From: Rhodobiaceae bacterium
GTDB lineage: Bacteria > Pseudomonadota > Alphaproteobacteria > RS24
Direction of reading: 5' to 3'
DNA length: 64,000 bases
NCBI GenBank assembly: GCA_018660505.1
Contig: JABJKE010000010.1
Span: forward strand, 1 to 64,000
The notes under the pieces were generated by a model, which saw nothing but the letters and a program-made list of their open reading frames with translations, had not been told where the DNA came from and did no database searches. The translations under genes and the position numbers were made by a program. This document shows positions 2,382-55,011 of the stretch, in pieces; within the stretch, counting starts at the first letter, position 1; each line of letters opens with the position of its first letter.

Positions 2382-4104
2382 ACTTCCCGTCGTCGCCGCA
2401 GGGCGAGATTGGGCCGCCGTTTTAGGTGGGCGGTTGACTTTGGGGCCCGGTGATTTATCGCATCACGCGGTCGAGGTCACGCGCAACCGATTGCGCTTGG
2501 CGCTGATTTGTTTCGTCCTTGTTTTCACCGTCTTGGGCGGACGTTTGGTGCAATTAACGGTGTTGGAAAATCAACCCGCTTGGCAGGCTGGCGCGCAAAC
2601 ACACCAACAAATGCTGCGTCCAACGATTGTCGATCGCAATGGCGTCGTTTTGGCTACGCAAATCTCGACCCTGACTTTGGGCGCCGATGTGGCGATGATT
2701 GACGACGGCCAAGCCATGGCCGCGCGCCTCAAGCAAATATTGCCAGATTTGAAGCAAGCGCGGGCGGCGCGCTTAATGTCTGGCAAAGACCGCTATGTCG
2801 AATTGCAATCGGGCTTGACGCCAGCTCAACGCCAAGCGGTTTTGGCTCTTGGCGACCCGGCGCTAAAACTGACGCGGGCCAGCAGTCGGGTCTATCCCAC
2901 CGGCCATGTGATGTCGCATAGCGTCGGCTTTACCAGCTCGGATATGCGCGGCCTCGCGGGCCTCGAGCTTTATCTTGACCGTTTGGTGGCGGAAGAAGAT
3001 TTCGAAGGCGTGTTTGAAAGCAGCCTAGATGTGCGGGTGCAACATAATGTGCGCGACGTGCTGCAAGAAACCATGGCCAAATATCAAGCTAAGGCGGCCG
3101 CCGCGATTGTGGTGGATGTGCATTCGGGCGAAATTATCTCGCTGGTGTCACTGCCAGATTTTGATGCCAATGAGCCGATGGCGCAAGGCCACGCCCCGCA
3201 TTTCAATCAGGTGACCTCGGGGGTTTATGAGCTTGGCTCGATTTTCAAAATCTTCACGGCCGCTATGGCACTCGACACAGGCCTGGTGGCCGAAGACGAA
3301 AGTTTCGATGTCCGCGAGCCGATAACCATTGGCCGCAAAACCTTTAAAGACGACCACGGCCAAGAGCGCGTGTTAACCATGGATGAAGTTATCGTGCATT
3401 CGTCGAACATTGGCACGGTTCAAATGGTCATGCGCGTGCCGGCGGATGTGCATTATGAATTTATTGGCAAGCTCGGGTTTCTTGACTCGGTGCCTTTCGA
3501 ATTGCCAGAAACGGCAGAGCCGCTGGTGCCCGCGCGCTGGACCGATATTGAGCGCGCGACCTCTTCGTTTGGCTATAGTTTTTCAGTTTCGCCTCTGGCA
3601 GCGGTTATGGCGGGCGCGGCGATGGTCAATGGCGGGGTGTTATACGAGCCGAGCCTGCGCAAAGTCGGCCTGCCGGTGGGCCAACGAATTATCGCTGCCG
3701 AAACCAGTCGCTCGCTGCGTCGGATGATGCGCTCTGTGGTGACCCATGGCACGGCGCGGCAAGCCAATGTGCCGGGCTATCAGATTTTGGGCAAAACCGG
3801 CTCGGCCGAAAAACACATGGTCGGCGGATATAATAAAGAAGCTTTGGTGACGTCTTTCCTCGGCGCTTTTCCCGCCCGCGCGCCGCGCTATGCGATGCTG
3901 GTTATGTTCGACGAGCCGCAAGGCCATGCCGAAACTTTCGGGCTTAATCTCGCTGGCTGGAATGCAGCGCCAGCGGCCGGCGAGATTGTGCGCCGAACCG
4001 CTAGCCTTCTGGGTGTCTTGCCGCGGGCCGAATTTCCCGCCGAACAAGCCGCTGTGGTGGAGACAGAAAAACCAATCGCGGAGGTGGCTTATGCGCCTCG
4101 ATGA
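2368..4104 (+). CDS. ftsI: peptidoglycan D,D-transpeptidase FtsI (PBP3)
   Basis: FtsI is the class B penicillin-binding protein that cross-links septal peptidoglycan together with FtsW. The 578-residue protein has a cytoplasmic N-terminus, a membrane anchor at about residues 43-61, a PBP dimerisation domain and a C-terminal transpeptidase domain. All three active-site motifs are present: S291-I-F-K294, S345-S-N347 and K476-T-G478. The ATG at 2368 is preceded by GGGAGGGG and gives a normal N-terminus; the longer frame starting at 2302 only reads through ftsL. It overlaps murE by 14 bases. Confidence 0.96.
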   Translation: MSRAKLPVVAAGRDWAAVLGGRLTLGPGDLSHHAVEVTRNRLRLALICFVLVFTVLGGRLVQLTVLENQPAWQAGAQTHQQMLRPTIVDRNGVVLATQISTLTLGADVAMIDDGQAMAARLKQILPDLKQARAARLMSGKDRYVELQSGLTPAQRQAVLALGDPALKLTRASSRVYPTGHVMSHSVGFTSSDMRGLAGLELYLDRLVAEEDFEGVFESSLDVRVQHNVRDVLQETMAKYQAKAAAAIVVDVHSGEIISLVSLPDFDANEPMAQGHAPHFNQVTSGVYELGSIFKIFTAAMALDTGLVAEDESFDVREPITIGRKTFKDDHGQERVLTMDEVIVHSSNIGTVQMVMRVPADVHYEFIGKLGFLDSVPFELPETAEPLVPARWTDIERATSSFGYSFSVSPLAAVMAGAAMVNGGVLYEPSLRKVGLPVGQRIIAAETSRSLRRMMRSVVTHGTARQANVPGYQILGKTGSAEKHMVGGYNKEALVTSFLGAFPARAPRYAMLVMFDEPQGHAETFGLNLAGWNAAPAAGEIVRRTASLLGVLPRAEFPAEQAAVVETEKPIAEVAYAPR

Positions 4105-50856: not shown

Positions 50857-51159
50857 TTAACGTGAGCAAATAACGCGATATTGGCGCGGCGAATATATAC
50901 CGCTCGTTAAACCGCTTAGCAGACCATTCAGGAATGTTTGTTCAGCTTCGACTGCAGCAACATTTCCTTTGCCGCCACAAATTTGTGCGGCATTAATTCT
51001 TTGGCTTTGGCCAATGCCGCCAACGAAGAATGTGCTTGCCGCATCTTTTGCTACGCGCGAACCACCATCGTCCAGAACAAATGTCTGTTTGGAACAAGCA
51101 CTGACGCTAAGGGCTACGCCAATTGCGACGACAGGAAGTATCTTAGAAAATTTAGTCAT
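50857..51159 (-). CDS. Bor family lipoprotein
   Basis: A 100-residue lipoprotein (lipobox SVSAC, Cys22) that closely follows the pattern of phage lambda Bor: CSKQTF after the lipid site, FFVGGIGQ at 44-51, NAAQICGGKGNV at 56-67 and TFLNGLLSGLTSGIY at 75-89, then a final cysteine. Bor is a lysogenic conversion protein of the outer membrane that raises serum survival in E. coli; free-living bacteria also have chromosomal copies with unknown roles. No phage genes are nearby. It is divergent from the bufferin operon with 280 bases between the starts. Confidence 0.88.
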   Translation of the reverse strand: MTKFSKILPVVAIGVALSVSACSKQTFVLDDGGSRVAKDAASTFFVGGIGQSQRINAAQICGGKGNVAAVEAEQTFLNGLLSGLTSGIYSPRQYRVICSR

Positions 51160-51439
51160 TGGGATTTTCTCCTCTTATTGTTGTGCGGAAAACCTTCTTG
51201 GCTCGCCACTTTAATGTTGGAGTACAGTGTTTCAAAGCGTATGCTCGCAAACTTGGCTCCAACTCTCAAAAGCCTAGCAAACCAAAGCCTGCTGGCAAGA
51301 GAGCTATTGTCAAAATTAACGCTCCATTAATCTTACTGCTTTATAAAATTCTTCGTGAGCAGAGTTGAGTTCGCGCTTGTTTTCTCGTTCCCCATTGCTA
51401 TGGTGAACGGGCCTAAAAATAAAAGAAAGGGTATTTAAA

Positions 51440-51742
51440 ATGAAACTTCTATCTACTTCTCTCGTTGTCGCCAGTGCATTTGCAGTCGCGCTCGGCACTA
51501 TGTCGGTCACGCCTGCGGAGGCCAAGAAACGCGAAAAATGTTACGGCGTCTCCAAAGCTGGCAAAAATGATTGCGCCGCCGGACCTGGCACAAGTTGCGC
51601 TGGCACCTCTAAGGTCGATTACCAAGGCAATGCTTGGAAATTTATCTCGGCCGGTAAATGCGAGAAAATCAAATTGCCGAAACAAAGCAACGGCATGCGT
51701 CGTCATGGCTCTCTGGAAGCGTTGAAACGCGACCCAGCTTAA
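51440..51742 (+). CDS. bufA: bufferin-type RiPP metallophore precursor (DUF2282)
   Basis: A 100-residue precursor with a Sec signal peptide (about 1-28, ending TPAEA) and a four-cysteine core: Cys34 (KCYGV), Cys45 (NDCAAG), Cys53 ([10 protein letters not shown]) and Cys74 (GKCEK). This is the DUF2282 pattern of bufferins, peptides in which a DUF692 enzyme turns core cysteines into thiooxazole rings that bind copper in the periplasm; the best studied case is in Caulobacter. A tail of about 25 residues after Cys74, basic and ending ALKRDPA, is longer than in relatives I remember. GAAAGGG precedes the start. First gene of a four-gene operon; the 280 bases before it hold no convincing gene. Confidence 0.9.
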
Positions 51743-51757
51743 TCGCCTAGACGAATA

Positions 51758-52663
51758 ATGACCGACCTTCCAGGCGCCATTGGCGTTGGTTTTAAGCCTT
51801 GTCATTTTCCCCATCTTCTCGCCTCTCAAGGGCCTGTAAGATGGGCGGAGGTGCATGCCGAAAACTATCTTATGGAAGGCGGCTCTATGCGGGCGCAGCT
51901 TTTTGAGTTGCGCTCGTATATGCCTATTTCGCTGCATGGTGTGGGGCTATCGCTCGGTGGCGCGCAAAAGCCCGATGCGGCGCATTTGGCGCGCCTGCGC
52001 GGTCTCATCGATGAATTGAAACCAGCACAATTTTCCGAACATCTGGCTTGGTCAACCCATGATTGGGATGGCAATGCTGCGTCTTCTGAGGGGGCGCCCA
52101 GTTTCGCAAATGACTTATTGCCGGTGGTCTATAGCCCTGAAACTCTGGCCCGTGTGGCGGCAAATATAGATGCTGCGCAACAGGCCTTAGGGCGCAAAAT
52201 TCTCATTGAAAATCCATCGCTCTATCTCGCGGCGCAAGGGTGCGATAGCGCCGCGGCCGAAACCGATTTCCTCAGCGCTTTGGTGGCCCAATCTGGCTGC
52301 GGCTTGCTGGTCGATGTGAATAATATTTTTGTCACCTGCCACAACCTCGGCTGGGACCGCGAGGCCTATCTGCGCGGCCTGCCGCTGGCCGCCATTGGGG
52401 AAGTGCATTTGGCCGGTCACGCCAGCGACACGGACGCGGCTGGCACGCCGGTGCTTATCGACCATCATGGCGCGCCTGTGGCGCCTGAAGTTTGGGCGCT
52501 TTACGAAGATTTGCTCAAAGCCAGCGGCCCGCTGCCGAGCCTTATCGAATGGGACACAAATGTGCCGGAATGGCCTGTCTTGCAGGCCGAATGCGCCAAG
52601 GCAGAGGCGATTTTGACGCGTTTTTCGGGCGCCGAATCGCAGCCCAAGGAGAGCGTGGCATGA
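51758..52663 (+). CDS. bufB: DUF692 multinuclear non-heme iron oxidative enzyme
   Basis: A 301-residue TIM-barrel protein of the DUF692/MNIO family, iron enzymes that oxidatively modify cysteine residues of peptide precursors. Conserved segments include EVHAENYL (31-38), HGVGLSLGG (60-68), SEHLAWS, IENPSLYL, LLVDVNNIFVTCHNLG, GEVHLAGH, DHHGAPV and EWDTNVP, whose His, Glu, Asp and Asn residues match iron ligands in known family members. It should modify the product of the gene just upstream (15-base gap). It overlaps its partner gene by 4 bases (ATGA). Confidence 0.93.
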   Translation: MTDLPGAIGVGFKPCHFPHLLASQGPVRWAEVHAENYLMEGGSMRAQLFELRSYMPISLHGVGLSLGGAQKPDAAHLARLRGLIDELKPAQFSEHLAWSTHDWDGNAASSEGAPSFANDLLPVVYSPETLARVAANIDAAQQALGRKILIENPSLYLAAQGCDSAAAETDFLSALVAQSGCGLLVDVNNIFVTCHNLGWDREAYLRGLPLAAIGEVHLAGHASDTDAAGTPVLIDHHGAPVAPEVWALYEDLLKASGPLPSLIEWDTNVPEWPVLQAECAKAEAILTRFSGAESQPKESVA

Positions 52664-53433
52664 GCCAGAACAGCGAATTTTTTAATGCGCTCTTTGAGCC
52701 AGAAGCGGGCGTTCCGAGCGCTTTTTCGCATCCGCAAAAAGACCAAGAGGCCACCGCCCGATTTTCGATTTATCGCAATAATGTGGTGGTGTCGCTGAAG
52801 CAAAACCTAGCCGATGGGTTTCCGCTTCTCTTGAGTTTGCTGGGCGGCGAGGCGTTTGATGCGCTGGCCGATGCTTTCGTGCGCGCGCATCCGCCGCGCT
52901 CGCCTTTAATGTTTGCTTACGGCGAGGCGCTGCCCGATTTCCTGGGTCAGTTTCCACCGTTTGCCGAGCTGCCCTATGCGGTCGACGTGGCGCGCCTCGA
53001 GCTGGCGATGCGCAAATCCGCCCATGCCAAGGATGTGATGGCGGGCACTGATTTACATTTGCACGACGCCGATGCGCAAGGGTTGCAAATGGCGCCTTGC
53101 GTGCAATTGGTGACCTCGGTTTGGCCGCTGTATGATCTATGGCTTTTCTTGCAAGACCGCGCCGAGGCGCCTGAGGATATGAGCCTCGGCCAATCGCTCT
53201 TAGTCTATCGGACGCCAGATTATGAGATTGAATTGGCCTGTTTGCCGCCTGATGGCGTGGCGTTCATCATGGCTTTGCTGGATGGAAAATCGCTCTCCGC
53301 GGCGGTCTCGATGGACCCAGAGAAACCGCTTAGCCAAGCCGATGCGACGACATTATTGACACGCCTGATGGAAGCCGGGCTGGTGACAGCCATGCGCGAC
53401 GTGAAACCTGAAACCAAAAAGAGGAATAAATAA
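52660..53433 (+). CDS. bufC: DUF2063 (HvfC/BufC-type) partner protein
   Basis: A 257-residue protein whose N-terminal 95 residues fit the DUF2063 domain: FSIYRNNVVVSLKQNLADGFPLL, LLGGEAFDALADAFVRAHPP and FAYGEALPDFL. In bufferin and related pathways this protein pairs with the DUF692 enzyme and is thought to present the precursor to it. The C-terminal part (HDADAQGLQMAPCVQLVTSVWPLYDLW, then a PQQD-like region LACLPPDGVAFIMALLDG...TTLLTRLMEAGLV) resembles the second domain of these partners. The ATG at 52660 follows AAGGAGA and overlaps the bufB stop; upstream frame is inside bufB. Confidence 0.9.
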   Translation: MSQNSEFFNALFEPEAGVPSAFSHPQKDQEATARFSIYRNNVVVSLKQNLADGFPLLLSLLGGEAFDALADAFVRAHPPRSPLMFAYGEALPDFLGQFPPFAELPYAVDVARLELAMRKSAHAKDVMAGTDLHLHDADAQGLQMAPCVQLVTSVWPLYDLWLFLQDRAEAPEDMSLGQSLLVYRTPDYEIELACLPPDGVAFIMALLDGKSLSAAVSMDPEKPLSQADATTLLTRLMEAGLVTAMRDVKPETKKRNK

Positions 53434-53434
53434 A

Positions 53435-54001
53435 ATGACGAAACTGCAACACATCTGGCGCGATGGATTAGCGCTTTATATCCGCTTTATGAATTATCTC
53501 GGCGCGGGGGCGGGGCAGTGGTTTCTTCCCCTAGCGGCGCGGTTTACCTTTGTCGCCGTTCGGGCTGGCTATTATTGGGCCTCGGCCATGACCAAACTTT
53601 CCGAAGGTATTTTTAGCCCTACATTGGGCGCTTATTATCAAATTCTGCCCAGCGTGACGGAAGCCGCGGAATACGATATTGAGGCCATTTCTATCTTTTT
53701 CACCCCGATTGTCTTGCTTGGCAGTTGGGCTGAATTTATTTTGCCGGCTCTCTTGCTGCTTGGCCTGTTCACCCGTGGCGCCGCTTTGGCGATGATTGGC
53801 TTTGTGATTGTGCAATCCCTGACCGATATTTGGGGCCATGGGGTCGAGGCGGCCACCATTGGGGCTTGGTTCGACCGCGGCTCAGATGCGCTTATTCTCG
53901 ATCAGCGCCTGCTCTGGGTGTTTGTGCTTTCGGTTCTGGTCATCAAAGGCGGTGGGCGGTTGTCGCTCGATAATTGGCTGAACATCGACCGCAAAGCCTA
54001 A
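53435..54001 (+). CDS. bufD: DoxX family membrane protein
   Basis: A 188-residue inner-membrane protein with about four hydrophobic segments in the DoxX pattern (AGYYWASAMTKLSEGIF, FILPALLLLGLFTRGAALAMIGFVIVQSL). It starts one base after the stop of the DUF2063 gene and so belongs to the operon. DoxX proteins close the bufferin operon in Caulobacter as well; a role in redox chemistry or export at the membrane has been suggested, not proven. The symbol is by analogy. Confidence 0.86.
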   Translation: MTKLQHIWRDGLALYIRFMNYLGAGAGQWFLPLAARFTFVAVRAGYYWASAMTKLSEGIFSPTLGAYYQILPSVTEAAEYDIEAISIFFTPIVLLGSWAEFILPALLLLGLFTRGAALAMIGFVIVQSLTDIWGHGVEAATIGAWFDRGSDALILDQRLLWVFVLSVLVIKGGGRLSLDNWLNIDRKA

Positions 54002-54033
54002 GGTCGTAAACCCCAATATTGCAAATCTTGCGT

Positions 54034-54053
54034 TGCAAAATTGCAATTTTGCA
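54034..54053. promoter_or_regulatory. 20-bp perfect palindrome before LysR gene
   Basis: TGCAAAATTGCAATTTTGCA at 54034-54053 is a perfect palindrome, and GCAAAT (54021-54026) and ATTTGC (54055-54060) extend the theme on each side. It ends 26 bases before the LysR start codon, a place where LysR-type regulators commonly bind their own promoter. The TTGCAA core repeats are AT-rich against the GC-rich surroundings. Confidence 0.65.
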
Positions 54054-54078
54054 TATTTGCAGCTAGACTATTGCGATT

Positions 54079-55011
54079 ATGAGGGATTTAGATTGGGATG
54101 ATTTACGGTTTTTTCTCGCGGTAGCTGCGGCTGGCAGTCTGTCGGCCGCCGCCCGCGAGCTCAACGTCAATACCACCACGGTGTTGCGCCGTATTGGCAA
54201 TTTGGAAGAGGCGCTGGAAGCACGGCTTTTCGAGCGCCTTCGCAGCGGCTATACGCTCACCCAAGATGGCACAAGACTGTTGCAATCTTTGGAACCCGTT
54301 GACACCAGTCTTTCCTCTCTGCAAAGGGATTTCCAAGCTGATTCAGGGGCTTATGGCGGCATTGTGCGCCTTTCGGCCAGTGATGTGGTGGCCGGTGGGC
54401 TGATTGGCCCGGCGGTGCCCGAATTTTTAAAAAGCGCGCCCGATATTGCTCTCGATATTATCACTGACCCGAGTTTGTCGGGCCCCGGTGGGGCGCCCCG
54501 GGTGATGAATGTGCTGCGCGATGTCGATATTGCGCTGCGGCTGGCGCGCCCAACCCAAGGCGATATGTTGGCGCGCAAATTATGCGATGTCGCTTATGGC
54601 GTCTATGCGACGCCCGCCTATACCCGAAAATTTGGCCCAATTGACAGCTCCGGCGATTTATCGGGCCATCAAGTGGTTGCCTTTTCGGAGGAAGAGCGCC
54701 CCCTTGGCCCCGTATGGTGGCTCTCGCGGGCCGAAAAAAACGCCAAAGTGGTTATGCGCTCGTCGAGCGTCGCCACGCGGATGACGGCGGTTTTGGGCGG
54801 CGAGGCTTTGGCTGCTTTGCCCTGTTTCATCGCGCGCCCGCAAGCTGATTTGCAGCCGCTTATCGGGCCCGATATCGTGGGCAATTTAGAATTATGGTTG
54901 CTGACGCGCAGTGATTTGGCCCGGCTTGGCCATGTCCGCGCGGTGATGGATTTTTTAATCCAACATGTGGCCGCACAGGCGGCTCATTTGGCCGGTCGAG
55001 ACGCAGGCTAG
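54079..55011 (+). CDS. LysR family transcriptional regulator
   Basis: A 310-residue LysR-type regulator. The N-terminal winged helix-turn-helix covers LRFFLAVAAAGSLSAAARELNVNTTTVLRRIGNLEE, with the recognition helix in NVNTTTVLRRIGNLE, followed by a linker helix and a periplasmic-binding-protein-like effector domain (GIVRLSASDVVAGGLIGP, VDIALRLARP). The effector and targets are unknown. It is on the same strand as the bufferin operon, 77 bases after the DoxX gene, behind its own palindrome, and so may be expressed separately; it could regulate that operon, but nothing in the sequence proves it. Confidence 0.9.
   Translation: MRDLDWDDLRFFLAVAAAGSLSAAARELNVNTTTVLRRIGNLEEALEARLFERLRSGYTLTQDGTRLLQSLEPVDTSLSSLQRDFQADSGAYGGIVRLSASDVVAGGLIGPAVPEFLKSAPDIALDIITDPSLSGPGGAPRVMNVLRDVDIALRLARPTQGDMLARKLCDVAYGVYATPAYTRKFGPIDSSGDLSGHQVVAFSEEERPLGPVWWLSRAEKNAKVVMRSSSVATRMTAVLGGEALAALPCFIARPQADLQPLIGPDIVGNLELWLLTRSDLARLGHVRAVMDFLIQHVAAQAAHLAGRDAG

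Follow-up and report, generated by a model that had tools for sequence, protein, structure and literature searches.

A probable Buf1-type bufferin operon in a Rhodobiaceae bacterium, at a site of repeated operon loss in its relatives

Enzymes of the MNIO family (formerly DUF692) act together with a partner protein to convert cysteine into 5-thiooxazole, with the loss of four hydrogens (PMC12452194, PMC12668002). In bufferins of the Buf1 type, the two central cysteines of the precursor are modified and the outer two are disulfide-bonded; once exported, the peptide sequesters periplasmic copper (PMC12452194, PMC12668002). Cells under copper stress grow better with bufferins, which chelate the metal (PMC12452194). 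In Caulobacter, the Buf1 operons are controlled by sigma-F and its anti-sigma factor NrsF (PMC3511200). Catalogued Buf1 precursors now number in the thousands and MNIO enzymes about 14,000 (PMC12452194), so the opinion of an initial annotation of the DNA studied here, that such systems have hardly been studied outside a few species, is outdated. The bufferin system is already known, and the operon described below is one more ordinary member of a large known RiPP family.

We analyzed a window of 64,000 nucleotides of Rhodobiaceae bacterium DNA (contig JABJKE010000010.1, positions 1 to 64,000). The initial annotation had proposed four tightly packed genes of a bufferin-type operon, with its place and strand given correctly. 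Four open reading frames lie on the plus strand at 51440-54001, with intergenic spacings of 15, -4 and 1 bp:

51440-51742, plus strand: bufA, Buf1-type (DUF2282) bufferin precursor, 100 aa (PF10048, 1e-24)
51758-52663, plus strand: bufB, MNIO maturase, 301 aa (PF05114, 3.2e-89; NF050167)
52660-53433, plus strand: bufC, MNIO partner with DUF2063 and a C-terminal RRE-like domain, 257 aa (PF09836, 1.6e-22)
53435-54001, plus strand: doxX, DoxX-family membrane protein, HvfX-like, 188 aa (PF07681, 3e-4; NF050144 HvfX, 5e-8)

The start codon of bufC overlaps the stop codon of bufB (ATGA), the arrangement expected of translationally coupled genes. Of 80 loci encoding BufB relatives in genomes across species, 74 had bufA, 76 had bufC and 35 had a doxX that could be detected, and the order of the genes was almost always the one seen here. 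A search of the genome found this one locus of DUF2282, MNIO and DUF2063 and no further locus of any of them. Among named relatives, an "uncultured Rhodobiaceae bacterium" assembled from a metagenome is the nearest, and its BufB is 78% identical.

The assignment of the 100-residue protein to DUF2282 was borne out by its profile score (86.7 bits, cut-off 22.4). Its cysteines are Cys34, Cys45, Cys53 and Cys74. All four are kept in every homologue that covers the respective position (73 or 74 tblastn matches each), and all four are invariant in an alignment of 52 rows. Cys45 and Cys53, which the initial annotation had singled out, are the two central cysteines and correspond to the positions modified in characterised Buf1 (PMC12452194). 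A Sec-type signal peptide, as read from the sequence itself, spans residues 1-28, with a hydrophobic N-terminus and an AEA cleavage motif at 26-28 that ends at Ala28. BufA scored far below the cut-off of the NCBIfam BufA2 model (21.6, cut-off 60), as expected for a Buf1 protein. A fold search with the BufA model, which is only moderate (pLDDT 71), gave no structural match. The C-terminal tail GSLEALKRD (codons 85-100, 51692-51739) lies outside the DUF2282 profile. The pattern GSLxxLxRD was present in 19 of 24 alphaproteobacterial rows and in all 4 rows from the family, in 1 of 11 gammaproteobacterial rows and in none of 12 betaproteobacterial rows. This tail may be what BufC recognises.

BufB matched the MbnB_TglH_ChrH family (PF05114, the former DUF692) and also scored above the curated cut-off of the NCBIfam "bufferin maturase" model MNIO_BufB (323 bits, cut-off 310). 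The motifs SLHG, SEHL, IENPS, VDVNN, HLAGH, DHH and IEWD are all present, with the conserved residues H60, H95, E151, D186, N188/N189, H217, H221, D235-x-H237, E264 and D266. The structure of a diiron MNIO (3BWW) aligned with BufB across the conserved metal motifs, and the metal-ligand motifs of BufB are intact. Replacement of N175, D242 or H244 abolishes the activity of HvfB (PMC13419390); judged by motif, N188 or N189, D235 and H237 are the putative counterparts in BufB. For FonB, D249 has been proposed as the catalytic base (PMC12668002), a place that we infer would be occupied by D266 in BufB.

BufC combines DUF2063 with an RRE-like domain, and its 257 residues fall within the size range of PME-type 1 partners (about 250-260 aa). 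A sequence search of the PDB with BufC gave no match. A fold search with its AlphaFold model (pLDDT 94, pTM 0.90) did match, and the best structural matches were TglI (8hci, 8hi7) and NGO1945 (3dee), both partner proteins of MNIO enzymes. BufC is therefore predicted to share the fold of these known partners. NGO1945 was at one time taken for a transcription regulator (PMC2954202); this idea has since been replaced (PMC12452194). The product of the fourth gene scored slightly below the Pfam cut-off for DoxX (21.8 bits, cut-off 23.6) and below the model cut-off for HvfX. The 28 DoxX proteins that were aligned from bufferin loci all matched the DoxX profile. A doxX gene is frequent in Buf1 clusters and is not an obligatory criterion for them.

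Profiles, gene order, active-site motifs and the fold of BufC all agree with the initial reading of a bufferin-type operon and place it in the Buf1 (DUF2282) family. We are highly confident that 51440-54001 is a Buf1-type operon with the modification and copper sequestration that family membership would imply. By analogy with characterised family members, BufA would be made in the cytoplasm with its Sec signal and be held by BufC for BufB, whose iron centre would use oxygen to convert Cys45 and Cys53 into 5-thiooxazoles (about -4 Da each). BufA would then be exported, its signal removed after Ala28 and a disulfide formed between Cys34 and Cys74. The mature peptide of about 72 residues would capture excess periplasmic copper, and DoxX would serve as a membrane accessory. 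By calculation, the monoisotopic mass of this peptide would be about 7709.9 without modification and 7699.8 once it carries two thiooxazoles and one disulfide. The modification, the disulfide, copper binding and the physiological role are all expectations from those family members.

Copper is not necessarily the metal handled here, since in Caulobacter the Buf1 operons are part of the sigma-F regulon and are induced by chromium and cadmium stress (PMC3511200). The GIG operon of Legionella responds to gold and copper (PMC5413113), and a DoxX homologue guards against oxidative or sulfur stress (PMC12452194). The same machinery could thus serve mainly against chromium, cadmium, gold, or oxidative or sulfur stress, with copper secondary. 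We consider this unlikely in view of the copper chelation and copper-stress growth benefit known for bufferins. The distribution of copper-type P-ATPases also speaks against it: they were found in 3 of 28 genomes of the family, all three with a bufferin locus (Fisher p = 0.006, genomes not independent). Two of the three genomes belong to one genus, so this co-occurrence is suggestive only. In one of them, G010, a MerR-like regulator and efflux-like genes accompany the ATPase gene in what reads as a metal-resistance-like cluster. Very similar clusters occur in G010 (L158), G013 (L159) and G023 (L160), that is, in two genera and only in bufferin-positive genomes, which suggests horizontal spread of the cluster.

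The genome itself (1.77 Mb, 94% complete, 46 contigs) encodes Cox11, which inserts copper into cytochrome oxidase; copper is therefore probably used by the organism. Searches of this 94% complete genome for a copper P-type ATPase, an HMA domain, a multicopper oxidase and CopB found none. Bufferin is thus the only recognised copper-defence locus among the families searched (CusA-type pumps, CopC and others lay outside the search). As these searches turned up no other copper-defence gene, a stand-alone copper buffer is a plausible role for the operon in this organism.

For the regulation of the operon, inspection by eye and alignment with the three relatives G010, G016 and G019 gave one candidate:

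51377-51404, plus strand: putative housekeeping-type promoter, TTGTTT, 16 bp, TATGGT

A sigma-70 consensus scan upstream of the operon found nothing above shuffled sequences and missed this element, and the upstream alignment hints at no more than an ordinary promoter. We tentatively rejected sigma-F control of bufA. The motif GTAACC-N16-CGAA (at most 2 mismatches) was absent from the bufA strand in the region preceding the gene and was no more frequent in the window than expected by chance, and NrsF (PF06532) was not detected in the genome. Control by sigma-F and NrsF is a trait of some Buf1 members and does not define them.

A lysR gene (54079-55011) lies on the same strand, 77 bp 3' of doxX, a position from which it might belong to the operon and regulate the bufferin genes. 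This is very unlikely, as eight relatives without an intact bufferin operon retain lysR together with its repeat-rich TTGCA region. In operon-less relatives lysR is flanked by ilvC and leuA, which makes a role in its own control or in leucine synthesis more likely. The dense TTGCA/TGCAA repeats just 5' of lysR (54020-54078) are conserved in 12 genomes, whether or not these have the operon, and are likely a LysR operator.

On the other side, a Bor-family lipoprotein gene (50857-51159, minus strand; PF06291, 1.2e-21), related to phage lambda Bor, diverges from bufA; it was not detected at the corresponding place in G010. There (L140, 6004-8966), a 17-kDa-antigen-like gene and bufA are separated by about 3 kb of other cargo, which consists of two small lipoprotein-like ORFs and a gene for a protein of 600 residues. 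Carriage by a phage was rejected, as the DNA of the operon matched no phage record. BufA has plasmid relatives, and the copy described here lies in the ilvC-leuA context common to its relatives.

The intact operon was found between ilvC and lysR-leuA in G000 and G010, which belong to the same genus, and in G016 and G019, which belong to another. At this site, seven relatives hold seven different remnants:

G001: 17-kDa-antigen-like gene fused to doxX at about codon 49, the two matches overlapping by 9 bp
G004: neighbouring lipoprotein gene fused to doxX at about codon 35
G007: bufC from codon 111, and complete doxX
G003: doxX codons 138-186
G022: bufA at about codon 44 fused out of frame to doxX codon 138
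G002: last 15 or so codons of doxX
G006: trace only

The overlap in G001 suggests microhomology at the junction. Searches for DUF2282 and MNIO found no bufferin genes elsewhere in these seven genomes (G022 was searched for DUF2282 only). Mapped onto a tree built from IlvC, LysR and LeuA, the lost state takes four changes, at least three of them on well-supported branches. A first loss may be common to G002, G006, G003 and G007, which group in one clade. The breakpoints of G001 and G004 differ, and the exact placement of both in the tree is uncertain. The tree changes, the shared clade and the differing breakpoints together show independent losses of the operon, at least three and probably four in number, with the main caveat that many of the relatives' genomes are fragmented assemblies. 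The series is not mentioned in the bufferin landscape paper (PMC12452194).

The same distribution could be read the other way, as recent horizontal acquisition of the operon by this strain, with absence in the relatives ancestral. The patchiness would fit, with DUF2282 and MNIO both present in the same 2 of the 12 genomes that represent the genus, and so would a BufB tree that puts the genus among Rhodobacterales sequences, a tree that does not settle a tie to genus g6. However, the site is identical in two genera, and the bufA, bufC or doxX remnants in seven relatives contradict recent acquisition, which we regard as extremely unlikely.

Where it is intact, the operon is kept functional. Comparison of this genome with G010 gave dN/dS values of 0.034 for BufA, 0.11 for BufB, 0.20 for BufC and 0.085 for DoxX, indicating purifying selection. 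Identity was 93% for BufA, 78% for BufB and 67% for BufC, making the precursor the most constrained part. The operon is not an essential one, since most close relatives manage without it. A stand-alone, constitutive copper defence that was repeatedly deleted where copper stress is low, and hence a dispensable, habitat-dependent trait, is a possible account for this lineage that we put forward only tentatively.

Two further copies deserve a note. In G003 (L143, about 3558-3888), the last 49 doxX codons persist within a new short ORF. Compared with G007, this fragment has a dN/dS of 0.037 and a dS of 0.82, whereas the neighbouring genes have a dS of 0.16-0.28; either selection on the fragment or recombination could account for these values. 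In G013 (L155), bufB lies at a different chromosomal site and has an in-frame TAG, due either to a sequencing error or to decay of another copy.

The main interest of the locus lies in the loss series, in which sister species with and without the operon can be compared at one locus with the breakpoints visible. Such matched pairs amount to a natural experiment on the value of bufferins to cells in nature. In contrast to this repeated loss, a related MNIO cluster has been reported to be obligately conserved in Microbulbifer (PMC12538549).

Among described systems, Caulobacter CC3254-CC3257 (Buf1) has the same four genes in the same order (PMC3511200, PMC12452194), encoding, as here, a DUF2282 precursor with four cysteines, an MNIO, a DUF2063-RRE partner and DoxX. 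Unlike in Caulobacter, no sigma-F/NrsF genes lie near the operon, NrsF being undetected in the genome, and the GSLxxLxRD tail of the precursor also counts as a difference from Buf1 clusters. The Buf2 systems likewise have a secreted, cysteine-rich precursor adjoining MNIO and DUF2063 genes, but those precursors have six or twelve cysteines, in contrast to the four of BufA and its low BufA2 score. Oxazolin/captophorin clusters (hvfABCX, fontiphorin) share the MNIO with a DUF2063-RRE partner, the secreted cysteine-containing precursor and the thiooxazole product (presumed here), and hvf also encodes a DoxX-like protein. Their precursors carry EGKCG repeats, which are absent from the 100 residues of BufA, and the HvfB, HvfC and HvfX models matched the operon proteins only below their cut-offs. 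Methanobactin MbnABC is similar in its MNIO enzyme family and in the logic of a copper-binding RiPP, but differs in its oxazolone-thioamide product, its unrelated short precursor and its MbnC partner; BufB scored 41 bits with the MbnB model, compared to 325.
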